A DNA stretch of 37,611 nucleotides from a virus. Below, piece after piece: positions 2,270 to 19,918 of the stretch (position 1 is the first letter of the stretch; every line of letters starts with the position of its first letter). The position numbers and the translations under genes were made by a program. The notes beneath the pieces were generated by a model. The model saw only the letters and a list, made by a program, of their open reading frames with translations. It searched no databases and had not been told where the DNA came from. The DNA lies in the IMG/VR virus record IMGVR_UViG_3300029813_000088, positions 1 through 37,611 of that record; one strand, given 5' to 3'.

Positions 2270-2874
2270 ATTTTAATGCAGTAGAAGCCAATAACGGCAA
2301 TCTGGTAGATATGTTCGGCATTTTTACGGAAATTGGCGGGGTTCAATACACCGCTAATCAAAAGGCCAAGGCAATCTGTAAAATAACCGATGATACCGGC
2401 GTAAGCCACAAAGTGCATTTACACAAAGGAAGTGGGGATTTGCCAGGCACAAGTTTTCTTCAACAAAGGCACGCATTTAGTCTGTCTACATTCCAAGGCA
2501 CTTATCAAGGAAATATCTATACGGGCTATTCCGGCTTTTGGAAAGGCCAAGCCCAAGTACAACAACCCCCCGCCCAGAATGCCCCACAAGCCCCCCAGCA
2601 ACCCCGCCAGGGCGTTCAAGCCCCCAAAGGCGATGATATGACCCGAATACGCTCGATGGCCTTGTCTTACGCAAAAGATATGGTATGTGAAGGCAAGTTA
2701 GACAAAGACCTTTTACCAGCTATGGCTAATGAATTTACGGCCTACATAATATCAGGGCGATGGTTTGACAAGACAGTTAAAGAGAGCGGCCAGCCGAATC
2801 CCGCCGAAAGCAGGAAAATGGCAGACGAATTTGAGGCCGGAATGGACGAAGGTCAAGATGACGTTTCGTTTTGA
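2266..2874 (+). CDS. SSB-like single-stranded DNA-binding protein
   Basis: The GTG start follows GAGGTG. Three parts are visible in 202 residues: a beta-rich N-terminal domain (about 1-90) compatible with an OB fold, a Pro/Gln-rich linker (about 95-120, QQPPAQNAPQAPQQP), and a helical domain. The end is acidic and finishes DDVSF. Bacterial SSB ends in DDIPF, which binds partner proteins, and also has a P/Q linker. The family assignment is inferred from architecture, not from a recognised OB signature. The extra helical segment (120-175) is unusual for SSB. Confidence 0.6.
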   Translation: MNFNAVEANNGNLVDMFGIFTEIGGVQYTANQKAKAICKITDDTGVSHKVHLHKGSGDLPGTSFLQQRHAFSLSTFQGTYQGNIYTGYSGFWKGQAQVQQPPAQNAPQAPQQPRQGVQAPKGDDMTRIRSMALSYAKDMVCEGKLDKDLLPAMANEFTAYIISGRWFDKTVKESGQPNPAESRKMADEFEAGMDEGQDDVSF

Positions 2875-2881
2875 AATAAAT

Positions 2882-2909
2882 TTGACATTCTCCAATAAAG
2901 AGCTATACT
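2882..2909 (+). promoter_or_regulatory. strong sigma70-type promoter
   Basis: TTGACA (2882-2887), a 16-bp spacer and TATACT (2904-2909). It lies just downstream of the SSB-like gene. Transcription should start near 2916, immediately before helix 1 of the pseudoknot leader. Confidence 0.85.
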
Positions 2910-2915
2910 TATGAT

Positions 2916-3006
2916 ATGCTACGCAGAGCAATACAATCAATTAAGGCCAGCCGAAGGCAAATCGAGCGAAAGCTCAATCTGCGTAGCAACTTTGGCTGGC
3001 TTTTTT
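2916..3006 (+). ncRNA. pseudoknot-terminator leader RNA, copy 1
   Basis: Helix 1 pairs 2917-2927 with 2978-2988 (11 bp, perfect). Helix 2 pairs 2946-2956 with 2990-3000 (11 bp, one G-U). The 5' arm of helix 2 lies in the loop of helix 1 and its 3' arm is one base past helix 1, so this is an H-type pseudoknot. A GAGC-GAAA-GCTC tetraloop hairpin (2964-2975) sits in the connecting loop. T6 at 3001-3006 directly follows helix 2. The next gene begins 15 bases later with GGAGAT as ribosome binding site. It is either an attenuating leader or a discrete RNA of about 91 nt. Confidence 0.75.
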
Positions 3007-3021
3007 ATTGGAGATAATCAG

Positions 3022-3471
3022 ATGGAACGAATACCACTTACACAAGGTCAATTCACAATTGTGGATAACGAAGATTTTGGGTGGCTCTCGAAATTCAAAT
3101 GGTGTGCACTTTGGCAGCCAAAAACGCAAAGTTTCTATGCGGCAAGATATAGCAAAAGAAAAAACGGCAAACGTTATCTTATTTATATGGCAAGGCAAAT
3201 TCTTGGCTTGACCTACGGCGACAAGCACCAAGCAGACCACATTTACCACGATACCCTTGATAACCGCAGGTCAGAATTGCAGATAGTTACCAATCAGCAA
3301 AACAATTTCAATCGAAAAAACTCAAAAGGCTATCATTGGAATAAACCGGCAAAGAAATATCTTGCGCAAATAAAATTAAACGGCAAACAGATACACCTGG
3401 GATATTTTCAAGTTGCTCAAGAAGCCCATAGTGCTTATTTACAGGCAAAGAAACGATATCATAAATTCTGA
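3022..3471 (+). CDS. HNH endonuclease with AP2-type DNA-binding domain
   Basis: Start at 3022 was chosen because GGAGAT lies just upstream; a frame from 2911 would read through the structured RNA. The 149-residue product has an HNH core (D72-H73, DNRR at 80-83, NQQNN at 91-95) and an AP2-like region (about 104-149, GYHWNKPAKKYLAQIKLNGK then LGYF). Such HNH-AP2 proteins are mobile, often homing, endonucleases in phages. It has its own promoter and leader, consistent with an independently expressed insertion. No intron or split target gene is visible nearby. Confidence 0.85.
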   Translation: MERIPLTQGQFTIVDNEDFGWLSKFKWCALWQPKTQSFYAARYSKRKNGKRYLIYMARQILGLTYGDKHQADHIYHDTLDNRRSELQIVTNQQNNFNRKNSKGYHWNKPAKKYLAQIKLNGKQIHLGYFQVAQEAHSAYLQAKKRYHKF

Positions 3472-3484
3472 AAGGGATGGTTAA

Positions 3485-3844
3485 TTGGAAATTCTTAAAA
3501 TTGCAGAAGTTATCCAGAAACTCATCGTAGAGATAGGTCAAACGAGAAGAGAAATTCTCGACAAAGGCAAGGCCAAAGCTAAAGCCATTTCAAACTACGA
3601 CCGCAAGATAGCCGTTACTCTTGCCGAGCTACGAAACACCGAATCATACGAGCTTGCCAGTAAGAGTTACAAGAGCCCGCCCGTAACCATAGCAGAGAAG
3701 ATAGCCAAAGGAATATGCTCTGAGGAAAGATACGACTTGGAATTGGCCGATAGTGATTACAAAGCAACAATAAGCAACCTTAATGCTCTTCTTGCGCAAC
3801 TCAACGGCTACCAAAGCATTTACCGACACTTGGAAAATGTTTAA
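3485..3844 (+). CDS. phage coiled-coil protein, 119 aa
   Basis: TTG start after AGGGATGG. An N-terminal helix is followed by a conserved-looking end (CSEERYDLELADSDYKATISN, then LNGYQSIYRHLE). Similar small proteins are familiar to me from phage replication/recombination regions near SSB genes, without a proven function; that resemblance is from memory. It sits 13 bases after the HNH gene. Confidence 0.65.
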   Translation: MEILKIAEVIQKLIVEIGQTRREILDKGKAKAKAISNYDRKIAVTLAELRNTESYELASKSYKSPPVTIAEKIAKGICSEERYDLELADSDYKATISNLNALLAQLNGYQSIYRHLENV

Positions 3845-3850
3845 TTCCAG

Positions 3851-3869
3851 AGCCAAGAAGATAGGAGAA
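3851..3869 (+). repeat. duplicated ribosome-binding cassette, copy 1
   Basis: A 19-base stretch (AGCCAAGAAGATAGGAGAA) recurs at 4132-4150 with one A/G change. Each copy ends six or five bases before a start codon, at 3876 and 4156 respectively. Confidence 0.75.
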
Positions 3870-3875
3870 TAAAGG

Positions 3876-4133
3876 ATGAGATACAAAAAGAAACCAATAA
3901 TTGTTGATGCTGTGCGATGGACGGGCAAAAATACCCCCGAAGTTATAAGATTTTGCCCTTTCACAGTTAGAATATTTGACGGGAGAAAAATATCTCATTT
4001 GTTGATTCCAACATTAGAAGGAAACCGCCCAGTACAAAAAGGCAATTGGATTATCAAGGACATTATTAAAGGCGAATTTTATCCCTGCAAGCCAGATATA
4101 TTCGCAACCACATACGAAAGGACATTTCTTTAG
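3876..4133 (+). CDS. conserved phage protein (GEFYPCKPDIF family), 85 aa
   Basis: A 85-residue protein beginning KKKPIIVDAVRWTG and ending GNWIIKDIIKGEFYPCKPDIF. This pattern is widespread among small phage proteins of unknown function. It is probably a compact beta fold. It is led by the duplicated cassette at 3851. The function is unknown. Confidence 0.8.
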   Translation: MRYKKKPIIVDAVRWTGKNTPEVIRFCPFTVRIFDGRKISHLLIPTLEGNRPVQKGNWIIKDIIKGEFYPCKPDIFATTYERTFL

Positions 4134-4150
4134 CCGAGAAGATAGGAGAA
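4132..4150 (+). repeat. duplicated ribosome-binding cassette, copy 2
   Basis: Second copy of the 3851-3869 cassette, starting inside the stop codon of the preceding gene and supplying AGGAG for the start at 4156. Confidence 0.75.
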
Positions 4151-4155
4151 CGAAG

Positions 4156-4341
4156 ATGCCATTAAGAGATAAGCCAATAGAGATAGATGATGACAATTGG
4201 TATTACGAAGAAAGGCAGGGCGTTTGCGTTGTTCATCGAGTCAAAGACCACGATGACCAATACTTAAAAACCGACCAGTTTTACATACCCTGGAAAAGAT
4301 TATTAGAAAGCGTTAAACGCAAATTCAATTTGAAACCCTAA
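4156..4341 (+). CDS. hypothetical protein, 61 aa
   Basis: A small acidic-then-basic protein (EIDDDNWYYEERQG, then WKRLLESVKRKFNLKP). Translation starts after the AGGAG of the duplicated cassette. One base separates its stop from the methyltransferase start, so a linked role in DNA modification is possible but not shown. Confidence 0.65.
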   Translation: MPLRDKPIEIDDDNWYYEERQGVCVVHRVKDHDDQYLKTDQFYIPWKRLLESVKRKFNLKP

Positions 4342-4342
4342 A

Positions 4343-5191
4343 ATGACTTTACCCCTCAATACCATCTTGAACGGTGATTGTTTAGAAGTTATGAAGGATT
4401 GGCCTGACGATTCTGCGGATTTAGTCTTTTGTAGTCCACCCTATGAGGACGCACGGACATACGGTATCGACTTCAATCTTAAAGGTCAAGATTGGGTTGA
4501 TTGGGCTTTGCCTCGTTTTGTGGAATGTGTGAGAGTGTGTAAAGGACTTGTGTGTTGGGTAGTGGAAGGAAAAACAAAACAATACAGATGGTCGGCCACG
4601 CCAGCGCTGTTGATGGCGGATTTGCACAGAGCAGGAGTAAGCCTTCGTAAGCCGCCGGCGTTTCACAGAGTAGGAATCTCTGGCAGCGGAGGCCCAGATT
4701 GGCTCCGCAATGATTATGAATTTATTATCTGCGCAACAAGCGGTCGCTTGCCCTGGTCGGATAATGTGGCTATGGGAATGCCGTGCAAATATCCGGTTGG
4801 CGGAGAGATGTCATATCGCAACAAGAATGGTGAACGAAAAAATGCAAGCGAATCCCAAAGACGAAAAGGAATTAAAGGGCACACTGTTGCCTATAATCCC
4901 CCAAAAATTGCTAATCCGGGCAACATAATTAGATGTCGGGTTGGCGGTGGCGTTGATAATAAAATATCACATGAAAACGAAGCTCCCTTCCCAGAAAAAT
5001 TAGCAGAATTTTTCATAAGGTCATTTTGTCCGCCGAATGGTGTAGTTGTTGATTGTTATAGTGGTTCGGGAACAACAGTTTCGGCAGCAAAGCAACTCGG
5101 GCGCAGGTGGATAGCGATAGATATAAGAAAAAGTCAATGCGAATTAACAGCAAGAAGATTAAAGGCTGTCCAAATGCCCTTATGGAGATAG
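4343..5191 (+). CDS. DNA methyltransferase, N4-cytosine/N6-adenine, beta class
   Basis: A 282-residue protein with motif IV CSPPY at 30-34 and the AdoMet-binding motif I DCYSGSGTT at 237-245. The order IV before I defines the beta class, as in M.PvuII-like enzymes. SPPY is more typical of N4-cytosine methylation than DPPY. The variable middle (about 115-215) would be the target-recognition part. No restriction endonuclease partner is adjacent, so this is likely an orphan enzyme protecting phage DNA from host restriction. Confidence 0.9.
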   Translation: MTLPLNTILNGDCLEVMKDWPDDSADLVFCSPPYEDARTYGIDFNLKGQDWVDWALPRFVECVRVCKGLVCWVVEGKTKQYRWSATPALLMADLHRAGVSLRKPPAFHRVGISGSGGPDWLRNDYEFIICATSGRLPWSDNVAMGMPCKYPVGGEMSYRNKNGERKNASESQRRKGIKGHTVAYNPPKIANPGNIIRCRVGGGVDNKISHENEAPFPEKLAEFFIRSFCPPNGVVVDCYSGSGTTVSAAKQLGRRWIAIDIRKSQCELTARRLKAVQMPLWR

Positions 5192-5250
5192 CCTTAACCC
5201 GCATAGCCCAGGCCAAGAAGGGCTATGAATTGTTAGAGATGAACAAATGA
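5182..5250 (+). CDS. possible 22-residue peptide
   Basis: A short frame that starts inside the methyltransferase end and ends in an ATGA overlap with the next gene (5247). The peptide is helical (MEIALTRIAQAKKGYELLEMNK). The overlap is the only support; it may simply be a coupling ORF or chance. Confidence 0.25.
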   Translation: MEIALTRIAQAKKGYELLEMNK

Positions 5251-5411
5251 GTGTAACATATCCAGCCCAATGTTCTTGTGGCCATTTATTTCTTGAAAAA
5301 TACAAATTGGCTAAACCGAACAAAAAGGGCGAAGTTGGGTTTTGTTGGTGCGGATTTTGCAGAAAGAAATATATGGTCAAGCCGAGAAAGAAAAAAATAA
5401 ATAATCCTTGA
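5247..5411 (+). CDS. small zinc-ribbon-like protein, 54 aa
   Basis: It has two Cys clusters, CSC at 9-11 and CWCGFC at 33-38, with a basic C-terminal tail (KPRKKK). It is probably a metal-stabilised nucleic-acid-binding micro-protein. Its stop codon lies inside the -35 box of the promoter at 5408, so transcription of the next unit begins exactly where this gene ends. No family is recognised. Confidence 0.6.
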   Translation: MSVTYPAQCSCGHLFLEKYKLAKPNKKGEVGFCWCGFCRKKYMVKPRKKKINNP

Positions 5412-5436
5412 CTCCCCTCGGAGCGGGGCGGATAAT
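5408..5436 (+). promoter_or_regulatory. sigma70-type promoter with a dyad in the spacer
   Basis: TTGACT (5408-5413), a 17-bp spacer and GATAAT (5431-5436). The spacer contains CCCCTCGGAGCGGGG, an inverted CCCC/GGGG that could serve as an operator. Predicted transcription start is near 5443, two bases before helix 1 of the pseudoknot leader. Confidence 0.8.
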
Positions 5437-5442
5437 GGTGAG

Positions 5443-5537
5443 TATGAACCATACGATAAATAAAGTGTCTTTAATCTGCCGGAGTCGCATCCTGGGCTTT
5501 ACCGCCCATCGTATGGTTCAGCTTCGGCAGATTTTTT
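5443..5537 (+). ncRNA. pseudoknot-terminator leader RNA, copy 2
   Basis: Helix 1 pairs 5445-5457 with 5508-5520 (13 bp, perfect). Helix 2 pairs 5473-5485 with 5521-5533 (13 bp, two G-U). The 3' arms abut with no linker, so the two helices can stack coaxially in an H-type pseudoknot. A GGGC/GCCC mini-hairpin (5494-5497 with 5504-5507) occupies the second loop. T6 lies at 5532-5537. Sequence differs from the 2916 copy but the topology, length (about 95 nt) and position between promoter and gene are the same. Confidence 0.8.
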
Positions 5538-5554
5538 ATTGAGAAAAGAGAATT

Positions 5555-6142
5555 ATGAAAACAGCAATAAATGGAAAAGTGAGATTAAAATTATTTTGGG
5601 GCGGGCTGTATTCTGGCGGGGGAATGACCCCGATAAACAGAGTCTTCAAGTTGGGCAAATTAACATTGGCAAAAGTTGTTTATTCAAAACTTTCGCCGTT
5701 TAGCCCTCGTTATTACCGAGCGGATGTTTTGGCGTTATTGCGTCAGGATTACGATGTTAGGTGGGAAGATTGTGGCGACAACGAGATGTGGCATTTGGTA
5801 TATTCCAAATTAGATGAGGGATACGTTGGCAGGCCAGAAGAAGCCTATCGGCTTTTACAACAAGGGATAAGAGATGTTCAGAAGTCAGAGCCTAATCATA
5901 AAGTTTGTTCTATCGGATTTAATCCAACAGAGCAGAAATGGTATGGTTGGAGCCATCGGGCAAGATATGGGTTTGGGATTGGGGACGTAGTGAACAGGGG
6001 TGATTGTTGTGCTTCAAGTGGTTGGACAGAAGAATATCTAAAAACCCACAAAGACCCTTATGTTTTACCAATTGGCTTTAAGGCCAAAACATTAAAAGAC
6101 GCAAAGCGTATGGCCGTGGCTTTTGCGGAAAGTGTTTCATAA
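5555..6142 (+). CDS. hypothetical phage protein, 195 aa (GWSHRA motif)
   Basis: Starts after AAGAGAATT, 17 bases past the T-run of the leader RNA. It has many aromatic and charged residues and a segment SIGFNPTEQKWYGWSHRA followed by GFGIGD. The segment rings familiar from large-phage proteins of unknown function, but I cannot give a role. It is the only gene before a 44-base gap, so it may be the single regulated target of the leader. Confidence 0.75.
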   Translation: MKTAINGKVRLKLFWGGLYSGGGMTPINRVFKLGKLTLAKVVYSKLSPFSPRYYRADVLALLRQDYDVRWEDCGDNEMWHLVYSKLDEGYVGRPEEAYRLLQQGIRDVQKSEPNHKVCSIGFNPTEQKWYGWSHRARYGFGIGDVVNRGDCCASSGWTEEYLKTHKDPYVLPIGFKAKTLKDAKRMAVAFAESVS

Positions 6143-6186
6143 AAACCCAGTTTTTATATTATCACTGTGCTGGTTCTAATAAATAG

Positions 6187-6368
6187 ATGAGTTCCAGAAT
6201 AAAAAAACTTTATCAGGTTATCCGACAAGCAGGCATACCGATAGGGGCAAGTTGTGATGCGAAACTCCCCGTCTGCGTCCTAAACGCATAATCAAGGACT
6301 TGGGAAGCATTGATAGAAAACAGGATAAGTATCGCATATTAAGGGATGCGATTAGGAATTCGGTCTAA
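6187..6368 (+). pseudogene. short gene apparently split by a frameshift
   Basis: A frame from ATG 6187 (MSSRIKKLYQVIRQAGIPIG) stops at 6289-6291. A second frame then runs to TAA 6366-6368 (RIIKDLGSIDRKQDKYRILR). Moving by one base at the CCCC run 6267-6270 joins them into a natural-looking 60-residue basic protein. The joined end overlaps the next start as TAATG. It is either a sequencing or true single-base loss in a C-run, or a programmed shift. The 6143-6186 gap holds nothing I can support. Confidence 0.4.
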
Positions 6369-6688
6369 TGAGTAAGACAGAAATCGAACAACTTCGAGCT
6401 GAAAACAAACAGTTAAGGATAAAATTGGAAAAAGCCCAACAATCCAAAAAACGCAAAAGTTATACGGAGGATTTTGAAAAATTCTGGAGAAACTTCAAAG
6501 GCAGATGGAATCCGGATACAGGATATTATGTTAAAGTGGGCAAATATCTTGCTTTTGGCGAATGGCGGAAATTGACTAAAACCGAACAACAAAAAGCGAT
6601 AGCTGTTGCGCATAAAGTTGGCGGTAAGTATGTGCCCGATGCGTGTCGATGGTTAAAAAGAAGGCTTTTTGATGACTTTAAGGGATAA
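6368..6688 (+). CDS. replication-protein-like small protein
   Basis: 106 residues: an N-terminal coiled coil (EIEQLRAENKQLRIKLEKAQ), then a domain with FEKFWRNF, a central KxxAFGEWRKL and a C-terminal YVPDACRWLKRRLFDDF. The latter pattern (FWxxY...W.KL...yvPh...WL..rrWeD) is the small C-terminal domain of many phage replication initiators such as O-like proteins. Here it stands alone without the winged-helix part. A role in loading the replisome is inferred only. Confidence 0.6.
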   Translation: MSKTEIEQLRAENKQLRIKLEKAQQSKKRKSYTEDFEKFWRNFKGRWNPDTGYYVKVGKYLAFGEWRKLTKTEQQKAIAVAHKVGGKYVPDACRWLKRRLFDDFKG

Positions 6689-6691
6689 GAA

Positions 6692-7105
6692 ATGGGAAAT
6701 GAATTAGTAAATATTGATACCGTAAAAGACAAAATCCGAGATAGGATACAGGTTGAATTTATAAGTTTGATACCAAAAGAGGCGTGGGATGCTCTTGTTA
6801 CAAAAGAGATAAATTGGTTTATGACGGACAAAGACAATTATTATCGTAGCACAAACTCTGCGATTTCTCCTTTAAGGGTTCTTGTGCGGCAAGAACTTGA
6901 AAAGCAATTCGGCGAGCAAATCAAGAAGAAATTACAAGAAATGGGAACTTGTAGTTGGGGTGCTAATGGCCAGCCCGAAGCCAGTAAGGCAGTTAAGGAA
7001 ATGGTCAAAAAAATCGCCCCTGAGCTTTGGGAAATTGCTGTTGCTGGTGTAGTTCAACGTGCCATAGAAGGGTTTCGCAATCAATTATCGCAAAGTGGTT
7101 ATTAA
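6692..7105 (+). CDS. hypothetical protein, 137 aa
   Basis: A mostly helical protein (VKDKIRDRIQVEFISLIP at the N-terminus; RQELEKQFGEQIKKKLQEMG in the middle). No recognised motif. Three bases separate it from the replication-like gene, so it is likely co-expressed with it. Confidence 0.7.
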   Translation: MGNELVNIDTVKDKIRDRIQVEFISLIPKEAWDALVTKEINWFMTDKDNYYRSTNSAISPLRVLVRQELEKQFGEQIKKKLQEMGTCSWGANGQPEASKAVKEMVKKIAPELWEIAVAGVVQRAIEGFRNQLSQSGY

Positions 7106-7159
7106 AGAAAATGTATGACGACTTCAAGTAATGACCATAGATTATGAAAGGATGAAATT

Positions 7160-7363
7160 ATGGCAATAAATACAGAAACTATGCCTTGGGGAACAATGAT
7201 TGAAATGATGCTGGGCAAAAGGGAAAGTTTTCGCCGGCGCAAAAGCCACGATGCCGTATATTTAGGGGCAGTCCATCAAAATCCCGATGCAATAGCTGTT
7301 GTTTTGAAGGGCAATGTAACAGTGCAGCATTGGCATAACGCTTTTTGGCGACAGAAAACTTAA
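7160..7363 (+). CDS. hypothetical protein, 67 aa
   Basis: Starts after GAAAGGATGAAATT. The sequence is a mix of basic and hydrophobic stretches (LGKRESFRRRKSHDAVYLG, then AIAVVLKGNVTVQHWHNAFW). No family is recognised. Confidence 0.55.
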   Translation: MAINTETMPWGTMIEMMLGKRESFRRRKSHDAVYLGAVHQNPDAIAVVLKGNVTVQHWHNAFWRQKT

Positions 7364-7397
7364 AATAATTAGGCGGCGGCTGAAAGAAAAATGAACG

Positions 7398-7490
7398 ATG
7401 TTAAACCTGACCCCCTTTTGCGACAGATGGTTTAATGAGGCCGGAATCCGGCGATTAACTGGACCGGCATTTGGCCGTCGCCTATTTTGA
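7398..7490 (+). CDS. possible 30-residue peptide
   Basis: The frame begins MLNLTPFCDRWFNEAG and ends RRLF, filling most of the gap between 7364 and 7503. The ribosome binding site is poor. The composition looks coding, but nothing else supports it. Confidence 0.25.
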   Translation: MLNLTPFCDRWFNEAGIRRLTGPAFGRRLF

Positions 7491-7503
7491 AAGGAAATTG
7501 AAA

Positions 7504-7833
7504 ATGGCAAAGAAAAACGGCGAAAAGGCAAGCGAACGCAAAGACATTGTAGTAACAATGAACCATCCACCAGTAGGATACGACCTTGAATTTATAGAAG
7601 CGATACAAAATGGAATTGACAAGGTTTTGGTTGGTTTTGGTTTTGCACGCTCGGAAGTAACAGAAATAGGCGAGAAAACAGAATGGTCTTATTATCAATT
7701 TGGAGTATGCCAAGCTAAATCCGAGCGGCTGGAAGCGTTATTGCAAAGAATTGATTGTTTTGTTTGGACTGGCGACCCCGAAGAGGTAGAGGCAGCAAGA
7801 CAAGACCTTGAGCAAGCCCTAAAAGACCAATGA
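7504..7833 (+). CDS. hypothetical protein with shared EQALK tail, 109 aa
   Basis: ATG 7504 is preferred over the in-frame TTG at 7471 because AAGGA (7491-7495) lies eight bases upstream. The core is not recognised (GIDKVLVGFGFARSEVTEIG). The end (SERLEALLQRIDCFVW...DLEQALKDQ) resembles the tail shared by the coiled-coil tile proteins, so this may be another mosaic member. Confidence 0.65.
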   Translation: MAKKNGEKASERKDIVVTMNHPPVGYDLEFIEAIQNGIDKVLVGFGFARSEVTEIGEKTEWSYYQFGVCQAKSERLEALLQRIDCFVWTGDPEEVEAARQDLEQALKDQ

Positions 7834-7863
7834 CCTTTAACGATGGCTGTATGGGAGTAGGAA

Positions 7864-8082
7864 ATGGCTAAATACATATACACAAGCATCCATTTTTGCT
7901 GTCAGAAGATTTTTATAGAATCGACTGGCGATAAAGATACTGATAAGGCAATAAAATCCATTTTCAAAGACCATTATCGCAAAACTGCTCCGTTGAGAAT
8001 GGCTCGAAATGATGTCCAAATTGCCCTTGCTTGGCGAAATAGAAAGTTAGGGATAGTAAATGGCAAAGAAGATAATCCTTGA
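7864..8082 (+). CDS. hypothetical protein, 72 aa
   Basis: Begins MAKYIYTSIHFCCQK, then a basic helix (KAIKSIFKDHYRKTAPLRMARN). It overlaps the following methyltransferase-like gene by 23 bases, suggesting coupling. Function unknown. Confidence 0.6.
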   Translation: MAKYIYTSIHFCCQKIFIESTGDKDTDKAIKSIFKDHYRKTAPLRMARNDVQIALAWRNRKLGIVNGKEDNP

Positions 8083-8617
8083 TTTATGCGGTGGCAGCGG
8101 CAGCTGGTCGAGACCTTACGCCGATGCGAGTTATGATGTGAGAAATATCACTTTGCCCGATTATGATGTGCGAACCTATATGCCCCCAGAAGGAGTTTAT
8201 GGTATTCTTGCGGCCCCGCCTTGCACCGAATTTAGTTTGGCGAAAGGCAATCGCCCTCGTGATTTTGAAAAGGGAATGGAAACTATTATTGCGTGTTTGC
8301 AGATTATCTGGAATTGCCGTTACCGAAACCCACTTTCTTTTTGGTGTTTGGAAAACCCAAGAGGATTTTTGCGTCAGTTTTTAGGTAAGCCTTCAGCAAC
8401 AATACAGTATTGGCAATATGGAGACAATCTTGGAAAACCAACTGACTTGTGGGGATATTTTGAATTACCAAAAGCGGTTTATACAGAACCGCCTGGACTA
8501 CTAAAAGAATGGGATAAAATAAAAACAATCAAAAGCGTTCAAAATCTTTCAGGGGCAGAAGTTAGGGCGAAAACTCCACCCAATTGGGCACAAGCATTTT
8601 TTGAGGCGAATAGATAA
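8060..8617 (+). CDS. C5-cytosine methyltransferase-like protein
   Basis: 185 residues. Motif I LDLCGGSGSWS at 7-17 binds AdoMet. Motif IV AAPPCTEFS at 51-59 carries the catalytic-type Cys55. ENPRG near residue 98 corresponds to motif VI. It is far shorter than bacterial Dcm enzymes and lacks a clear target-recognition domain, as is common for phage members of this family. Methylation of cytosine in DNA is likely, but a nucleotide-level or altered reaction cannot be excluded. Confidence 0.75.
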   Translation: MAKKIILDLCGGSGSWSRPYADASYDVRNITLPDYDVRTYMPPEGVYGILAAPPCTEFSLAKGNRPRDFEKGMETIIACLQIIWNCRYRNPLSFWCLENPRGFLRQFLGKPSATIQYWQYGDNLGKPTDLWGYFELPKAVYTEPPGLLKEWDKIKTIKSVQNLSGAEVRAKTPPNWAQAFFEANR

Positions 8618-8652
8618 TGGCAAAAATGGGCGAACGAAAGTAGTTAAACGAA

Positions 8653-9117
8653 ATGAAAATATGTAGTAAGTGTAAAATAAATAAGTCAATTTCTGAATTT
8701 TATAAAAATCGAAGCAGAAAAGATGGGCTTGACCATCGCTGTAAAATCTGTAGCAAGTTAGAAGCCAAAGAATATCTTGAAACCAAAGAGGGCATAAAAG
8801 TTCACGATAAATATTATCAGTCAGAACAATACCAAAAAGCCCAAAAACGATATAGGCAATCTGATAGAGGCAAGCAAACAAAAAAGAAATATAGACAAAA
8901 AAACAGAATGAAGGTCAAGGCTCATTATGTTGTAAATTATGCTATTACAACTGGCATAATAGTTCGTCCTGAAAGATTAAAATGTTTTTGCGGAAAAAAA
9001 GCAAAAGATTATCATCATTGCAAGGGATACGAACCAAAACATTGGTTCAGCATAATTCCTGTTTGTGGTTCTTGTCATTACAAACTTCATCAATTAGTTG
9101 ATAATTTGAAGAATTAA
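8653..9117 (+). CDS. HNH-like Cys/His zinc protein
   Basis: 154 residues. An N-terminal zinc knuckle (CSKCKINKSISEFYKN, then CKIC) is followed by a highly charged middle helix rich in Lys, Gln and Tyr (about 50-95). The C-terminal half has CFCG, DYHHCKGYEP and CGSCHYKLH, the layout of phage HNH-type proteins in which HH and CxxCH hold the metal and active site. Probable DNA nicking or cutting; catalytic competence cannot be judged. Confidence 0.7.
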   Translation: MKICSKCKINKSISEFYKNRSRKDGLDHRCKICSKLEAKEYLETKEGIKVHDKYYQSEQYQKAQKRYRQSDRGKQTKKKYRQKNRMKVKAHYVVNYAITTGIIVRPERLKCFCGKKAKDYHHCKGYEPKHWFSIIPVCGSCHYKLHQLVDNLKN

Positions 9118-9121
9118 ATAT

Positions 9122-9598
9122 ATGCACAAAATGGGTTTTGAGACAAACAAGCGATTTAGGCCAAAATACGGAAACGAACCTGTTGAGGCGATGGTTGACG
9201 GTAAGCGGATAAAGTTTAAGTCGAAATTCGAGTATAGATGGGCACAGTATCTCGATTTTCTAAAAAATGCTGGCGAAATAAAGGGATGGTGGTATGAGTT
9301 TTGCACTTTCCGTTATCGGGACAGATTGAAACCGCCTTACGAATGGACGCCCGATTTTGTCGTGCGGACGGTAAAGAACGAATTGGAACACTACGAATGC
9401 AAAGGGATGTTGCAGCGATACGACTTGAAAAAACTGAAACTCCTCAATGAAGAGAGGCCATTAGTAAAAGTGATTTATGTTTTCTGGTCGAAACCGAAAA
9501 TAAGCGTTCAAAAGAAAGAGCAATTAGAAAGGTGGTGTGAGCGTGTTATCTGGGATGCCCGAAAGATGTTGAAAAATGTGCCGATTGATATGGCTTGA
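9122..9598 (+). CDS. PD-(D/E)XK endonuclease-like protein
   Basis: 158 residues in the layout of small phage nucleases related to DUF1064 and endonuclease I-like folds: FKSKFEYRWAQYLDFLKNAG (helix with a conserved Glu), YEWTPDFVV (catalytic Asp), and YECKG (ExK). These residues would chelate the metal. A possible junction or repair nuclease of phage DNA. ATG 9131 is an alternative start three codons in. The Trp-rich tail is not part of the known core. Confidence 0.75.
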   Translation: MHKMGFETNKRFRPKYGNEPVEAMVDGKRIKFKSKFEYRWAQYLDFLKNAGEIKGWWYEFCTFRYRDRLKPPYEWTPDFVVRTVKNELEHYECKGMLQRYDLKKLKLLNEERPLVKVIYVFWSKPKISVQKKEQLERWCERVIWDARKMLKNVPIDMA

Positions 9599-9628
9599 GC
9601 GAACTTTTGCAAGGGGAATAAGCCAAAG

Positions 9629-9823
9629 ATGGCATTATCAATTATACCGAAAAACCGAGCAGGAAAGCGTTGGGTAAAGCGTTGGGTTTGGGACAGGAAA
9701 GCCTACAAGCTGATTCCTCGGCAATGTGATAATTGTTCGGCTAATGGAGACGGTTGTGCTTTATGTAATGAATTTTTTGTAGGTGGTTGCAAAAGATTTA
9801 TGAGGCCAAAAGCGAAAGGCTAA
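9629..9823 (+). CDS. small basic Cys-rich protein, 64 aa
   Basis: Basic N-terminus (KNRAGKRWVKRWVWDRK) and a compact cysteine cluster (CDNCSANGDGCALCNEFFVG, then C). Probably a zinc-stabilised fold. Led by GCAAGGGGAATAAG, akin to the leaders of the 359 and 9840 genes. No family is recognised. Confidence 0.6.
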   Translation: MALSIIPKNRAGKRWVKRWVWDRKAYKLIPRQCDNCSANGDGCALCNEFFVGGCKRFMRPKAKG

Positions 9824-9839
9824 AGCAAGGGGAATGAAT

Positions 9840-10136
9840 ATGGATGAAAAAGAAACAACAATACCAGATTATAGAAAGGGCGATGTAGATGTAATAGGCC
9901 AGCTCCAAGCCGCCAACAAGACCCTGCAAGCCGAAGTCAAGCGACTGGAAGCGTGGCAGGAAATTCACAAAAAGGACATCGAAAAATCTCACGATGATGA
10001 AATAGAGCTACTTGGGCTGAGAGACGAGGTTAAACGGTTGAAAAAGCTATTATCAAAAGCCCAATACTGGGTGTCGAATTACGGCTATAATCTTGACTTG
10101 GCGATGGAAATTGAGCAAGCCCTGAAAGGTCGGTGA
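9840..10136 (+). CDS. coiled-coil protein, tile family copy 3
   Basis: ATG 9840 is chosen over ATG 9834 because AAGGGG at 9828-9833 would lie too close to the latter. After a short acidic head, residues 21-36 repeat the LQAANxxLQAEVKRL helix of the 147 gene at near-identical DNA level. The tail EIEQALKGR matches the other members. The intervening middle differs, so members look like recombined tiles. No enzymatic motif. Confidence 0.7.
   Translation: MDEKETTIPDYRKGDVDVIGQLQAANKTLQAEVKRLEAWQEIHKKDIEKSHDDEIELLGLRDEVKRLKKLLSKAQYWVSNYGYNLDLAMEIEQALKGR
9900..9943 (+). repeat. 44-bp coiled-coil DNA tile, copy B
   Basis: 42 of 44 bases match 195-238, in the same reading frame. Confidence 0.8.
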
Positions 10137-10507
10137 ATGATATGTTTGTAAGTATATGGACAAAAATTCACGATTTAGAAGAGGAACGGTCTGTTCTCCA
10201 AGCCAAAATCGAGCGGCTGGAGAAGCAGTTAATGGAACACGGAGAAGCATTGACGATACTTGCACAACTGCGACAGTTGTATCGCTTGAGTCCTGATATG
10301 AAAAAGCCTCAAGTTGAATCGGCAGCTAAATATATGATGAAAAAAGCGGAAGAGGGATTGCGAGTTGCTCGACAAAGGCGACAAGAAGAATATATTAAAA
10401 ACCTGCAAACCAAAATCAAGCGGTTGGAAAAAGAGATAGGCGATTTGAGGGCGGCTGCCGTGCGAAAAGGATTGATGAAGGGCGGCAGTTTTACAGGTAA
10501 AGGCTAA
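10133..10507 (+). CDS. coiled-coil protein, tile family relative
   Basis: The GTG at 10133 overlaps the previous stop (GTGA); ATG 10142 is an alternative with GAAAGG eleven bases away. Two diverged tile-like helices are seen (VLQAKIERLEKQL and LQTKIKRLEKEIGDLR) flanking a basic segment (RVARQRRQEEY). The C-terminus is glycine/lysine rich (KGGSFTGKG). Confidence 0.65.
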   Translation: MNDMFVSIWTKIHDLEEERSVLQAKIERLEKQLMEHGEALTILAQLRQLYRLSPDMKKPQVESAAKYMMKKAEEGLRVARQRRQEEYIKNLQTKIKRLEKEIGDLRAAAVRKGLMKGGSFTGKG

Positions 10508-10722
10508 TGACAGAAAACGAACACATCGAGATTGAAGAACGAGGCTACAAGGATATTGTGAAAACCTTTTTGGTCTTCAAATTGTGGCAAGACCACGACA
10601 AAGCACCTCTATCTCATAATCAACTATTTCTATCGGCAAAAACTTTACCATTGGCCAAGGCTTATATTAGGGAATGGTTTCCAGGTTTGCCGATAACTGT
10701 AACGAAAAAGGCAGGTGATTGA
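10507..10722 (+). CDS. hypothetical protein, 71 aa
   Basis: The start overlaps the previous stop (TAATG). Acidic head (ENEHIEIEERG), then a hydrophobic/aromatic middle (IVKTFLVFKLWQDHD) and YIREWFPGLPITVTKK. No family is recognised. Confidence 0.65.
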   Translation: MTENEHIEIEERGYKDIVKTFLVFKLWQDHDKAPLSHNQLFLSAKTLPLAKAYIREWFPGLPITVTKKAGD

Positions 10723-10723
10723 T

Positions 10724-10990
10724 ATGTTGGCAATTGAATTATTACACGATATGATAAGAAATATGGAGGGCGTAGGAACAATAGCCGTGCCTTACCACAT
10801 AAATCAAATCAAAGAAGCAGTTCACGAAATTGAGAATCTAACTGCGAAAAACAAACAGTTAAAAACCAAAATTGCTCGTGTTCAAAGATTGCAAAGAAGA
10901 TACGAAAGAATTAGCAACTGCCTTGTTACTATGAAATATCCAGCGAAAGATATTAAACAGGCTTTAGCTGCCCAAAAGCCCACCCAATAA
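10724..10990 (+). CDS. helical protein, 88 aa
   Basis: ATG 10724 is preferred over GTG 10715 because AGGTGA sits five bases before it. Helical throughout, with a coiled-coil centre (IENLTAKNKQLKTKIARVQR) and a tail DIKQALAAQKP faintly like the tile-family tail. Last gene before a 71-base gap without a gene. Confidence 0.6.
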   Translation: MLAIELLHDMIRNMEGVGTIAVPYHINQIKEAVHEIENLTAKNKQLKTKIARVQRLQRRYERISNCLVTMKYPAKDIKQALAAQKPTQ

Positions 10991-11040
10991 ATTTTTTAAC
11001 AAAACACAAAAAAGTCGGATTCTTCTTGCCTGCTTCAACT

Positions 11041-11065
11041 CCATCACATAGGTTGTAAGTGATGG
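11041..11065 (+). promoter_or_regulatory. hairpin that covers a start codon
   Basis: CCATCAC (11041-11047) pairs perfectly with GTGATGG (11059-11065). The second arm contains the ATG of the next gene. No strong ribosome binding site is seen, so this could limit initiation or restrict it to coupled translation. Confidence 0.4.
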
Positions 11066-11259
11066 CTAATCTTAACAACGCAAATACCGACATCGCTCAT
11101 ATCAACAGCATTGAAGGTCTTGCCTTTGAAATGAATCGCCACATCGAAGCCCTAACGCCTGCGACAGCCGAGCTGTGGGCGATCGTGGACGCTTTGCGCA
11201 AGGGTTTGGCTATATGGCAGGCAAATGAGTTAAAAGAGGCCAGAAAGGCGTTGGAATGA
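11062..11259 (+). CDS. hypothetical helical protein, 65 aa
   Basis: Helical sequence (AFEMNRHIEALTPATAELWA, then EARKALE). The start codon is inside the 11041-11065 hairpin. Last gene of the rightward early region; its stop overlaps the A-run of the converging minus-strand terminator. Confidence 0.6.
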   Translation: MANLNNANTDIAHINSIEGLAFEMNRHIEALTPATAELWAIVDALRKGLAIWQANELKEARKALE

Positions 11260-11286
11260 AAAAAGCCCCTGTTAAGTTAGGGGCTT
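11259..11286 (-). terminator. intrinsic terminator of the minus-strand module
   Basis: The arms 11263-11270 and 11279-11286 pair over 8 bp. Read on the minus strand the stem is followed by T6 (A-run 11259-11264). On the plus strand there is no T-run, so it chiefly stops leftward transcripts, at the point where the two operons converge. Confidence 0.85.
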
Positions 11287-11318
11287 GGTGCTCTTTGACA
11301 AGTTAATAAAACGAGAAT

Positions 11319-11555
11319 TTACTTCTTCTCGATTTTGGCTATGGCGGCCTTGGCTTTTTTCGCAATAGCCGCAATGATATTATTAGCAAAAGCTAACTGG
11401 TCTGTCTTGAAAGGCGCTTTTGGATTAGCAGCAAATTTGCACGCATCCAGTAAGGCAGGTGCGGCATCTCTCAAGCATCCTGGACAAATATCTTCTTTAT
11501 ACCAACCATGCTTATTACACTTTTTTAAGGTATCTTTTATGCGTTCATCTAACAT
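11319..11555 (-). CDS. Cys-containing small protein, 78 aa
   Basis: The start at 11555 follows AAAGGAGCTGAAACA; a longer frame upstream lacks such a site. A Cys-rich front (KKCNKHGWYKEDICPGCL) is followed by an alanine/lysine helix (NNIIAAIAKKAKAAIAK). The front could bind zinc; the helix is the kind that binds nucleic acid or membranes. Last gene of the leftward module. Unrecognised. Confidence 0.65.
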   Translation of the reverse strand: MLDERIKDTLKKCNKHGWYKEDICPGCLRDAAPALLDACKFAANPKAPFKTDQLAFANNIIAAIAKKAKAAIAKIEKK

Positions 11556-11587
11556 TGTTTCAGCTCCTTTCTTTACTTGGGTTTGGC

Positions 11588-11761
11588 CTACACTCTTTTT
11601 ATCTCTACTGGAGACTTCCTGCAAACTTTGCAATAAGTAGCCTTAGATACTGTCCCCACACATTTATAACACCCTAATGTTCCACAATTCGCACAGCGAA
11701 CCTGTTCTCCGATTGTCGCCCCACACGTTACACAGGGTCTTTGTGTGTTCCAATATGCCAT
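11588..11761 (-). CDS. double zinc-ribbon micro-protein, 57 aa
   Basis: Four CxxC knuckles: C10-C13, C23-C26, C31-C34 and C44-C47, enough for two zinc sites. Three ATGs are in a row; the innermost (11761) has the best distance from AAAGGAG. Zinc ribbons of this size often bind DNA, RNA or RNA polymerase; which is not known here. Confidence 0.7.
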   Translation of the reverse strand: MAYWNTQRPCVTCGATIGEQVRCANCGTLGCYKCVGTVSKATYCKVCRKSPVEIKRV

Positions 11762-11775
11762 CATCATTCTCCTTT

Positions 11776-11794
11776 CAAGCCCGAAGGCGGTTAA
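11776..11794 (-). repeat. gene-junction repeat, copy 1
   Basis: A 19-base unit (plus strand CAAGCCCGAAGGCGGTTAA) at the junction upstream of the 11588-11761 gene. It recurs exactly at 11968-11986 and, with an insertion, at 12163-12188. On the minus strand it contains a GCC-TTCG-GGC tetraloop hairpin and lies just before the AAAGGAG. Confidence 0.8.
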
Positions 11795-11952
11795 CGAACA
11801 ATAGCTAACCCTGTTGTATCTTTGCGGAAAATAGTGCATCTAAATCCTGCTACCTGTAATTCTTTTTTGATGTTTTTAGCTCGTCTTAATGTTCGGCTAA
11901 ATCGAGTTTTGCAACGTTTAAGATTATATGTTCGTATTTCAATTTGATACAT
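11791..11952 (-). CDS. small basic protein, 53 aa
   Basis: Starts at 11952 after GAAGGAGTGAAACG and stops at TAA (11793-11791), which is part of the junction repeat. The sequence is strongly basic (LKRCKTRFSRTLRRAKNIKK) and ends GLAIVR. Likely nucleic-acid binding by charge. Unlike its neighbours it has only two cysteines. No family is recognised. Confidence 0.6.
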   Translation of the reverse strand: MYQIEIRTYNLKRCKTRFSRTLRRAKNIKKELQVAGFRCTIFRKDTTGLAIVR

Positions 11953-11956
11953 CGTT

Positions 11957-12148
11957 TCACTCCTTCACAAGCCCGAAGGCGGTTAAGATTTGGTCAATTT
12001 CCTCAAAATCAGAGTGGCAGCAAGGTGAAACGAAACAAGATTGAGAAGAAGCCCCGTCATATTCTTGGTATTTCTTCTCAACGATTTTCTTACTGGAGAA
12101 ATGTCGACCACATCCTAAACACTTACATTGATAGGATTTAGCTTCCAT
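11957..12148 (-). CDS. zinc-finger-like protein, 63 aa
   Basis: Cysteines in CKCLGCGRHF and CFVSPCCHSDF form two likely metal-binding halves separated by a basic linker (SSKKIVEKKYQEYDG). The last codons (LTAFGLVKE) are encoded by the junction repeat at 11968-11986, so the repeat doubles as the tail of this gene and the ribosome binding site of the next. No family is recognised. Confidence 0.65.
   Translation of the reverse strand: MEAKSYQCKCLGCGRHFSSKKIVEKKYQEYDGASSQSCFVSPCCHSDFEEIDQILTAFGLVKE
11968..11986 (-). repeat. gene-junction repeat, copy 2
   Basis: Exact copy of 11776-11794. Here it is translated as the C-terminus of the 63-residue zinc protein. Confidence 0.8.
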
Positions 12149-12162
12149 TTTTCACTTCTTCA

Positions 12163-12188
12163 CAAGCCCTGCAACGCAAGGCGGTTAA
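12163..12188 (-). repeat. gene-junction repeat, copy 3 (interrupted)
   Basis: CAAGCCC and AGGCGGTTAA are both present, but the middle is replaced by a longer TGCAACGCA. It supplies the stop codon of the 12185-12331 gene. Confidence 0.65.
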
Positions 12189-12331
12189 GCGGTTTTTGTT
12201 TTCTTTGGCTGGTTCGGATGCCATTTAGCCCAAAACCTTTTACCACACTTGCTACACTTGCCCGAATGTACACCGACAGAGTGGTAAGTGCCATTTATGC
12301 AATCTGGCTTATTTGGCTTTGGGTATTTCAT
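12185..12331 (-). CDS. small zinc-binding-like protein, 48 aa
   Basis: Starts at 12331 after GAGAGAGTGAAACA, 16 bases past the U-tract of the leader RNA. C11, CSKCGKRF (26-33) and His residues (YHSVGVHSG) suggest one zinc site. The tail is basic (NQPKKTKTA). First gene of the leftward module and the direct target of that leader. No family is recognised. Confidence 0.6.
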   Translation of the reverse strand: MKYPKPNKPDCINGTYHSVGVHSGKCSKCGKRFWAKWHPNQPKKTKTA

Positions 12332-12347
12332 TGTTTCACTCTCTCAT

Positions 12348-12445
12348 AAAAAGCCCGGCCACTGGCCAAGCCGGGAAAAGCTTGATAGACCAGCAGCCGA
12401 GCTTAAATAACATTTTGGATTGTGCTTTTCCCAGCTTCATAATTA
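12348..12445 (-). ncRNA. pseudoknot-terminator leader RNA, copy 3 (minus strand)
   Basis: Read on the minus strand. Helix 1 pairs 12437-12424 with 12381-12368 (14 bp, one G-U). Helix 2 pairs 12403-12388 with 12367-12352 (16 bp, four G-U). The 3' arms abut. A U5 tract follows at 12352-12348. The loop crossing helix 1 is only 6 nt (12387-12382), tight for 14 bp, so the outer pairs may open. A local hairpin CCCGGC/GCCGGG can replace helix 2. A 34-codon frame (12440-12336) overlaps it and is treated as incidental. Confidence 0.75.
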
Positions 12446-12451
12446 CAAACT

Positions 12452-12480
12452 AATATATTGCCGGGACGTTGTAAAGAAAA
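12452..12480 (-). promoter_or_regulatory. leftward promoter of the zinc-protein module
   Basis: On the minus strand TTTTCT (12480-12475), 17 bp and TATATT (12457-12452), giving a start near 12445, eight bases before helix 1. An alternative is TTGATT (12496-12491), 17 bp and TACAAC (12473-12468). Either places the leader RNA at the 5' end. Confidence 0.55.
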
Positions 12481-12499
12481 ATCTTGAGAAAATCAAGAT
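12481..12499. promoter_or_regulatory. dyad between divergent promoters (possible operator)
   Basis: ATCTTGA and TCAAGAT form a perfect 7-bp inverted repeat around GAAAA. It overlaps the alternative leftward -35 box and lies 17 bases before the rightward -35 box, a usual place for a repressor site controlling both directions. No repressor gene is recognised in the window. Confidence 0.5.
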
Positions 12500-12515
12500 A
12501 TTTATTAAAAAAAGT

Positions 12516-12543
12516 TTGACTCCGTTGGCATAACCGTTAAGAT
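12516..12543 (+). promoter_or_regulatory. rightward promoter before the structured region and late genes
   Basis: TTGACT (12516-12521), a 16-bp spacer and TAAGAT (12538-12543), preceded by an A/T-rich stretch (12498-12513) like an UP element. Start near 12550. It is the only good promoter found ahead of the terminase and virion genes. Confidence 0.65.
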
Positions 12544-12549
12544 TGATAC

Positions 12550-13000
12550 AAATGGTAAGGAAATAAAGCGAAAAAGCGTATTGGCAAAGTGAAGAACTCG
12601 CATCCCAGGGGCCCACGGCGCACTCATCGTGGGTGTGAGGGCAGCGGCTGAGAAAGGGCTATTGATAAATGGTGAACCTCTCAAGGCTAAATAAGAAGCC
12701 GTTTTTTGGTAGTCTTTTCTCCGCTGCTGCTATAAGCTACTTGCCAAAAAGATTAAGTTATGATGTAAAAACCTTTGCTTGCTTGAACTGATAATAAAGA
12801 TTAATTATGAGATAAGCTAATCTCAGAAGAAACCCTGGGGTTTATTAAAGTTGTTTGATATTTACTTAACTAATGAGTTAGTTGTTTGGCTAACAAGAGT
12901 GGCAAGTTAAGGACTTCAACCAATGGCGCACAAAGAATAACAGTACATACCAAGGCGATGGAAAAAAGAGGCTAAAGTCTTATCTTGAAGGTGTTTGATT
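12550..13000 (+). ncRNA. probable structured non-coding RNA, about 450 nt
   Basis: There is no gene between 12332 (minus) and 13042. The best-supported part is 12581-12747: P1 12581-12590 with 12739-12747 (9 bp, one bulge), P2 12597-12605 with 12631-12639 (9 bp), and P3 12641-12660 with 12711-12727 (17 bp around a 3-nt bulge), giving a three-way junction. Beyond it are hairpins 12808-12825, 12830-12843 and 12868-12883, and a long helix 12903-12916 with 12975-12987. A T6 at 12702-12707 lies in the P3 loop. It fits no family I know. Extent and boundaries are uncertain. Confidence 0.5.
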
Positions 13001-13041
13001 GAAAGTAAATAATTGCTTTAGGTAGAAAGTGAGTAGGTTTT

Positions 13042-19877: not shown

Positions 19878-19885
19878 TTCGGAAA

Positions 19886-19918
19886 GGGGGCGGGAATAAA
19901 CTCGCCCCCTATATTTTT
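19886..19918 (+). terminator. terminator-like hairpin after the capsid gene
   Basis: GGGGGCG (19886-19892) pairs with CGCCCCC (19903-19909), loop of 10. A T-rich tail (TATATTTTT, 19910-19918) runs up to the next ATG at 19919. Probably lowers expression of the downstream genes relative to the capsid. Confidence 0.7.

Follow-up and report, generated by a model that had tools for sequence, protein, structure and literature searches.

Predicted leaderless open reading frames running through putative terminator pseudoknots ahead of phage genes: a recurrent class of candidate ribosome-controlled attenuators

Analysis of the genome of an uncultured phage (IMG/VR record IMGVR_UViG_3300029813_000088, positions 1-37,611; the window is this whole stretch of 37,611 nt) revealed three elements with interleaved helices and a U-tract, W1 and W2 on the plus strand and W3 on the minus strand, each preceding a different gene of the same phage genome. 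They belong to a class of sequences whose existence is near certain, and they are probably transcription attenuators whose outcome is decided by the first ribosome. The first-pass annotation had placed the three elements correctly, and their helices, promoters and U-tracts were confirmed; the plan that it described was right but lacked a key part, namely a leaderless leader open reading frame (ORF) that runs through the pseudoknot. It is this leaderless ORF that makes the odd RNA recognisable as a ribosome-controlled attenuator.

In W1-W3 the leader ATG is located 6-7 nt after the -10 box, i.e. at the predicted transcription start (Table 1). The leader ORF begins 1-3 nt upstream of the 5' arm of helix 1 (H1), spans H1, helix 2 (H2) and the U-tract, with its stop codon 4-12 nt upstream of the next gene: 4 nt upstream of the HNH gene start in W1, 12 nt upstream of the next gene start in W2 and 4 nt upstream of the next ATG in W3. 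The score of the W1 promoter is matched by about 0.1% of random positions. W1 also possesses an extra inverted repeat that extends into its promoter. The genes behind the window elements encode an HNH protein, a Tad6 family protein and an unassigned 48-aa protein, and the content of the three units suggests that they are early. The HNH protein had no relative in a pattern scan of IMG/VR, and relatives were found in searches of related phages. The gene behind W2, judged by its Pfam match, is likely an anti-defence (anti-Thoeris) gene, while the Pfam search with the 48-aa protein behind W3 gave no family.

Table 1. Coordinates of the W1, W2 and W3 elements and of the genes behind them.
Feature	Position	Strand	Details
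W1 promoter	2882..2909	+	TTGACA (2882-2887), 16 nt, TATACT (2904-2909); 11/12 consensus matches
W1 leaderless leader ORF, 33 aa	2916..3017	+	MLRRAIQSIKASRRQIERKLNLRSNFGWLFYWR; ATG 6 nt after -10 box; open through H1, H2 and U-tract
W1 H1 5' arm	2917..2927	+	11 perfect pairs with 2978-2988; includes UG of leader AUG
W1 H1 3' arm	2978..2988	+	11 bp helix
W1 H2 5' arm, within H1 loop	2943..2956	+	pairs with 2990-3003; 14 bp, G.U allowed
W1 H2 3' arm (terminator stem)	2990..3003	+	1-nt linker after H1 3' arm
W1 U-tract, U6, within leader ORF	3001..3006	+	sequence
W1 downstream gene, HNH homing-endonuclease-like protein, 149 aa	3022..3471	+	PHROG 99, E=4e-27
W2 promoter	5408..5436	+	TTGACT-17-GATAAT; sequence
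W2 leaderless leader ORF, 32 aa	5444..5542	+	MNHTINKVSLICRSRILGFTAHRMVQLRQIFY; ATG 7 nt after -10 box
W2 H1 5' arm	5445..5457	+	13 perfect pairs with 5508-5520
W2 H1 3' arm	5508..5520	+	13 bp helix
W2 H2 5' arm	5473..5485	+	pairs with 5521-5533, 13 bp
W2 H2 3' arm	5521..5533	+	abuts H1 3' arm, linker 0 nt
W2 U-tract, U6	5532..5537	+	after H2
W2 downstream gene, Tad6 family (type I Thoeris inhibitor) at residues 82-195	5555..6142	+	PF25188, E=9.6e-44
W3 promoter	12447..12475	-	TTTACA (12475-12470), 17 nt, TAGTTT (12452-12447); weaker consensus match
W3 leaderless leader ORF, 34 aa	12336..12440	-	MKLGKAQSKMLFKLGCWSIKLFPAWPVAGLFMRE; promoter spacing, open frame
W3 H1 5' arm	12424..12437	-	14 pairs with 12381-12368
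W3 H1 3' arm	12368..12381	-	14 bp helix
W3 H2 5' arm	12388..12404	-	17 pairs including G.U with 12367-12351
W3 H2 3' arm (12367-12351) and U5 tract (12353-12349)	12349..12367	-	linker to H1 3' arm 0 nt
W3 downstream gene, 48-aa protein with CxxC-like cysteines	12185..12331	-	heads leftward unit of small ORFs

Among all 857 U-tracts of the window, W1-W3 were the only outliers, with stacking energies of -59.2, -48.8 and -46.6 kcal/mol, the next value being -30.2. When the whole window was dinucleotide-shuffled 200 times, a single site reached -40, and shuffled element bodies never attained the real scores (0 of 5,000), so that the real elements lie far beyond such shuffles. Codon-preserving shuffles are a weak control here; short ORFs allow few permutations. 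The usual terminator scan omits two of the three window copies, W1 and W2, because of their long loops. Rfam gave no match at gathering score on the window, and a c-di-GMP riboswitch identity, considered in a permissive Rfam search of 2860-5600, was discarded, its best match (E=0.85) being regarded as chance.

A search of approximately 4.2 Mb of phage DNA with a descriptor combining promoter, leaderless ORF and interleaved helices yielded nine unique elements: the three of the window and six spread over five other phages. All nine have the same geometry, with pairing conserved and sequences unrelated. Block-wise dinucleotide shuffling of this DNA (4.17 Mb), carried out three times, produced no element at or below -40 (best, -38). 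All nine members share the promoter, a start codon placed 6-7 nt beyond the -10 box and an ORF over both helices and the U-tract, with a gap of 0-2 nt between the two 3' arms and the end of H2 at 77-123 nt into the leader ORF. Such a start codon leaves the transcript no room for an SD sequence, and the leaders are predicted not to be SD-led. The leader stop lies 1-12 nt upstream of the next gene in seven of the nine, one ORF overlaps that gene by 31 nt, and L032 is without a close gene. The leader peptides are unrelated and contain no run of regulatory codons, and the genes behind differ among members. In 8/9 members there is a single-stranded loop of 15-21 nt that is rich in AU and poor in G, several L1 loops terminate in short U-runs, and W3 and L008 have weak -35 boxes. 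A rough estimate of pseudoknot energy was lower than the nested minimum in 7/9 counted members.

An ATG leaderless ORF is present in 8 of 13 strong interleaved-helix sites versus 3-13% of weaker ones, and every promoter-bearing strong site has a leaderless ORF (with GTG in L032) except L131, which possesses promoter and helices, yet an ORF of only 10 codons. L146 (GTG, compact), L063 (one helix, covering its start codon) and L212 were left out of the member count, and the high-scoring helices of L121, L062, L072 and L154, without a good promoter or sensible position, were taken as chance. The operons headed by L048 and L123 have two gene families in common, GP88 and a 69-79 aa protein, and the two pseudoknots are unrelated in sequence and matching in dimensions. 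A Phd-like assignment of the L009 gene was not borne out by Pfam.

The pairs themselves carry the mark of selection on RNA. Symmetric helix extension over the members gave 216 Watson-Crick, 27 G.T, 2 A.C and 3 other pairs, and the excess of G.U over A.C indicates that the structure is selected as RNA, on the transcribed strand. A compact relative of the class, L125/L126, is located upstream of orthologous genes in two phages; comparison of the two copies revealed six pairs changed on both sides in a compensatory way and none disrupted, while the loop diverges. Across nine copies of unrelated sequence, it is geometry alone that is under selection, and the class therefore escapes sequence-based RNA searches.

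One terminase family is common to five of the six phages with members, the window phage included; it was found in 4/5 other member phages and in none of the parts of L032's phage that were read. No further member turned up when 1.05 Mb of DNA from GP88 phages was searched. Homologues of the first L048 gene have leaders that lack an element, and gene and element therefore do not travel together. As a pointer to the host, terminase relatives were found in two Chloroflexi MAG contigs, but strong relatives are rare in that class (2 among 393 genomes). No element was found in 196 kb of those Chloroflexi genomes, and candidate Chloroflexi contigs checked for leaderless genes gave no clear signature.

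The first-pass annotation had considered HK022 put RNA and type III toxin-antitoxin RNAs and found that neither fits, which holds; the nearest analogues are instead pyrBI-type and leaderless leader-peptide attenuators. Type III systems (ToxIN) present promoter, pseudoknot RNA, terminator and gene in this order, but they have tandem repeats and a ToxN/CptN/TenpN toxin, whereas the window elements contain no direct repeats and no ToxN-like gene follows W1-W3. In pyrBI the leader ORF ends just before the structural gene and a close ribosome prevents termination, no single-codon run being needed. Similarly, the leader ORF runs through the predicted intrinsic terminator in 9/9 members and in most of them its stop is only a few nt away from where the structural gene begins. 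The pyrBI leader has an SD and is controlled through UTP-sensitive pausing, with a plain hairpin and an unhidden start codon, whereas here a leaderless start is predicted and the terminator stem supplies half of a pseudoknot. PMC4824070 also refers to the pyrBI terminator as lying within the leader peptide. Leaderless short ORFs serve as attenuators in mycobacteria, where polycysteine uORFs depend on contiguous cysteine codons (Canestrari et al. 2020, as summarised in PMC9031893). The likeness lies in a leaderless ORF at the transcription start ahead of an operon, here judged by promoter spacing only; in contrast, our ORFs are free of codon runs and lie within the span of the structure. In the Corynebacterium glutamicum ilvBNC leader, the transcription start is a single nt away from the AUG of the leader and a hairpin H1 has been proposed to shield the initiation site (PMC11857589), but that system employs amino-acid codons and competing antiterminator hairpins, and its 15-aa leader does not span the terminator.

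We infer that the elements are best read as pyrBI-type ribosome-controlled attenuators to which two features have been added, a leaderless start and the burial of the start codon in a pseudoknot. The first transcribed base would be the A of the leader's AUG. A ribosome binding this 5'-terminal AUG on the still-short RNA would cover the H1 5' arm and then trail RNA polymerase through the leader ORF, holding the H2 arms apart, so that polymerase would pass the U-tract. At the leader stop the ribosome would halt beside the start of the next gene, to which it might be handed over, presumably coupling the two. Without a timely ribosome, H1 would close on the start codon and H2 would close as the terminator stem, leaving an inert pseudoknot RNA of approximately 90 nt. 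H1 may thus act as a lock, the hidden AUG keeping ribosomes from being trapped on the terminated leader, which is sensible since such a leader has no stop codon. In Escherichia coli, a ribosome close behind polymerase represses an intrinsic terminator near the stop codon, and terminators lying less than 100 bp into a coding region are efficient because the ribosome has not yet caught up (PMC4824070). Given where H2 ends in the leader ORF, the attenuator model must therefore assume fast leaderless initiation or polymerase pausing. L032, with no gene directly behind, L131, with its very short ORF, and the weakness of the W3 and L008 -35 boxes count against the model.

Of the two guesses in the first-pass annotation, a pseudoknot-gated attenuator proved the better one and a set of phage small RNAs the less supported. 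It is unlikely that the elements are trans-acting small RNAs ending at their own pseudoknot terminator, with ORFs and genes behind incidental. Their own promoter and terminator, the compact size of 90 nt with the loop described above, and the isolated position of L032 would fit; against this, the RNA body is an ORF that extends from the predicted start through the whole structure in 9/9 and ends no more than 12 nt from, or overlaps, the next gene in 8/9, and the loop sequence is unconserved, diverging between L125 and L126 while the pairs are kept. Attenuators that sense a small molecule, a protein or a nucleotide pool, the ORF being a timing device, seem improbable. UTP-dependent pausing sets the ribosome-polymerase distance in pyrBI, whose ORF-over-terminator layout is the same, and the U-runs ending several L1 loops agree with this idea, but there is no shared aptamer sequence, no Rfam match above chance and no regulatory codon run in the peptides. 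Very improbable is a put-like action, in which the folded leader binds RNA polymerase and causes read-through of later terminators: early transcripts of phage HK022 carry the folded put RNA at their 5' end, and our elements also sit directly at promoters and seem to depend on structure rather than sequence, but put consists of two separate, non-interleaved hairpins of conserved sequence that antiterminate, whereas these helices are interleaved, unconserved in sequence and directly followed by a U-tract, and their ORFs would be left unexplained. Chance inverted repeats or DNA-level repeats (recombination or operator sites), which the extra repeat reaching into the W1 promoter might recall, are scarcely credible, as shuffles never reproduced the class and 27 G.U versus 2 A.C pairs point to the transcribed strand.

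Ribosome-controlled attenuation is textbook knowledge for biosynthetic operons. A limited search of the open-access literature retrieved no paper on it as a repeated phage device, and none on a pseudoknot in which one half is an intrinsic terminator and the other conceals the start codon of the leader. We lean towards regarding the elements as an undescribed class of phage regulators, in which a leaderless ORF has its start codon and its terminator tied in one pseudoknot, forming a first-ribosome checkpoint that would restrict transcription of accessory genes, including the likely anti-Thoeris gene, to cells quick to start translation. If this mechanism is true, these phages gate individual accessory genes, one of them likely an anti-defence gene, by the ability of the cell to translate.

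All nine unique elements, three in the window and six in five other phages, contain a leaderless leader ORF whose start codon lies 6-7 nt past the -10 box, at the predicted transcription start, and which stays open across both interleaved helices (H1 and H2, the latter being the terminator stem) and the U-tract. In seven of the nine, the leader stop codon lies 1-12 nt ahead of the next start codon; the leader ORF of L123 overlaps the start of the next gene, and L032 has no close gene. H1 begins within or directly after the start codon in eight members and 10 nt into the ORF in L164.

The 37.6-kb phage record is incomplete and includes terminase, portal and major head genes. It was scanned at every U-tract on both strands for the best interleaved helix pair with abutting 3' arms and a second helix ending at the U-tract. 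The three promoter, helix and U-tract elements described in the first-pass annotation (W1, W2 and W3) were recovered in place and as described, with stacking scores of -59.2, -48.8 and -46.6 kcal/mol, the next window site scoring -30.2. Across 200 whole-window dinucleotide shuffles, best scores averaged -29 and a single site reached -40. None of 5,000 shuffled element bodies (start codon to U-tract) reached the real score.

Coordinates of the elements and of neighbouring or related features
Feature	Location	Strand	Observation
W1	window 2882-3006	plus	leader ORF MLRRAIQSIKASRRQIERKLNLRSNFGWLFYWR; stop 4 nt ahead of next start codon
W2	window 5408-5537	plus	leader ORF MNHTINKVSLICRSRILGFTAHRMVQLRQIFY; stop 12 nt ahead of next start codon
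W3	window 12348-12480	minus	leader ORF MKLGKAQSKMLFKLGCWSIKLFPAWPVAGLFMRE; stop 4 nt ahead of next start codon
20-nt inverted repeat	window 2880-2899 / 3004-3023		80% complementary, 11 nt perfect; W1 promoter spacer to HNH SD and start
Tad6-family gene	window 5555-6142		PF25188, E=1e-43; domain at residues 82-195, first 80 residues extra and without Pfam match
Intergenic interval	window 12500-13041		about 540 nt without clear gene; strong hairpin-like repeat CCCACG...CGTGGG
1060-aa protein gene	window 19874-23056		adjoins head genes; both termini carry methyltransferase-like domains, with a weak nucleotide-sugar transferase match between them
Compact element	L125 73-118 / L126 8514-8556		between promoter and small gene of unknown function
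Single-helix element	L063 4226-4309		promoter, leaderless 27-aa ORF, terminator; start codon inside 5' stem arm; next ATG 1 nt past leader stop
Short-ORF element	L131 1975-2068		promoter, interleaved helices, U-tract; 10-codon ORF only, ending in loop 1; precedes 253-aa gene
L032 element	L032 16642-16765		flanked by 10-nt inverted repeat GGTTACGGAC/GTCCGTAACC, besides the pseudoknot

IMG/VR relatives of the window proteins were fetched, and the same plan was found with unrelated sequence in other phages, at L008/L009, L048, L032, L123, L164 and L018. L018 shares a phage with L009 and has one mismatch in H2. Of the interleaved-helix sites listed over 3.1 Mb, those at or below -40 had a good promoter in 54% of cases and an SD-led gene directly behind in 46%, compared with about 1% and 7% of weaker sites. 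A second search, combining promoter, leaderless start, ORF and interleaved helices, returned the nine unique elements at -59 to -43 and everything else at -35 and weaker, except L154, a GC-rich match that was rejected, having neither a plausible promoter nor a plausible gene following it. When these 4.17 Mb were shuffled block-wise three times, no site scored -40 or below (best -38), and 1.05 Mb from other phages fetched through GP88 gave no new member. The window-family terminase is carried by four of the five further phages that contain counted members (the phages of L009/L018, L123, L048 and L164); none was found in the parts read of the L032 phage, which was reached through Tad6. The three-element observation is real and stronger than a reader of the window could know, and at the sequence level the existence of a class is nearly certain.

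Helix extension that made no distinction between mismatch types gave 27 G.T, 2 A.C and 3 other non-Watson-Crick pairs. Such asymmetry is unexpected for DNA-acting repeats but is predicted where pairing of the transcript is under selection, and shows selection at the RNA level. In seven of the nine members the pseudoknot is, by rough energies, more favourable than the best nested alternative, a count that is indicative only, given the generic pseudoknot penalty. The L048 and L123 elements each head an operon with GP88 (PF17338) and a protein of 69-79 aa, two gene families common to both; the elements have nearly equal dimensions (loop L1 17 and 17, H1 11 and 12, H2 16 and 17) with no sequence similarity to each other. 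The compact element of L125 and L126 (8+8 pairs, no linkers) precedes orthologous genes whose proteins are 70% identical; six of its 16 pairs are changed on both sides, three per helix, and none is broken. This covariation is lost when partners are slid; the shuffle control (9 of 500) is weak, as there are only two sequences. The compact element has no leader ORF from an ATG. It was left out of the count and is related to the members by its plan; it may be a simpler version of their device. The L063 element is possibly a single-helix version, and that of L131 an exception or a different subtype.

The gene behind W1 is HNH homing-endonuclease-like. W1 and this gene look like an inserted cassette: in L110 (exonuclease 83% identical), another small gene occupies the space from the preceding gene to the homologue of the 3485-3844 gene, and the element is absent. 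Transcripts from upstream could mask the HNH ribosome binding site through the inverted repeat; those from the W1 promoter would lack its anti-SD strand, an arrangement that could resemble that of a T4 homing endonuclease. The gene behind W2 is, by family name, a predicted Thoeris inhibitor, as Tad6 is named in Pfam. W3 heads a leftward unit of small ORFs, separated from the rightward packaging unit by the intergenic interval, which may be a site of promoters or an origin. The 1060-aa protein is unusual for a head region.

Termination at the pyrBI attenuator of E. coli is prevented when a ribosome follows the polymerase closely. The phage elements share with it an intrinsic terminator inside an ORF, a stop codon a few nt past the U-tract and an adjoining next start, but differ in the leaderless start and H1, which are new parts here. 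The leaderless start recalls mycobacterial polycysteine leaders, as summarised in PMC9031893, and C. glutamicum ilvBNC (PMC11857589); unlike both, the elements contain no regulatory codon run. They lack the defining features of put RNA and of type III toxin-antitoxin RNA, and no Rfam family matched. No description of this combination was found in the openly accessible literature.

The elements are best read, with fair probability, as ribosome-controlled transcription attenuators. The transcripts would start and end at the predicted points and the leader would be translated, its translation promoting read-through and coupling to the next gene, presumably early. A ribosome on the 5'-terminal AUG would occupy the H1 5' arm; with no ribosome, H1 would hide the start codon and H2 would terminate transcription. 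Such a lock would be useful because the terminated leader has no stop codon, and would protect the cell from non-stop translation. Near complete repression is seen for a terminator placed directly after a stop codon, and it is lost on uncoupling translation (PMC4824070). The same work complicates the reading: E. coli terminators lying in a gene's first 100 bp evade ribosomes, so that leaderless initiation would have to be fast enough, or the polymerase would have to pause. By analogy, the control logic would be ribosome-controlled attenuation, already known, while its structure and setting in these phages are apparently new.
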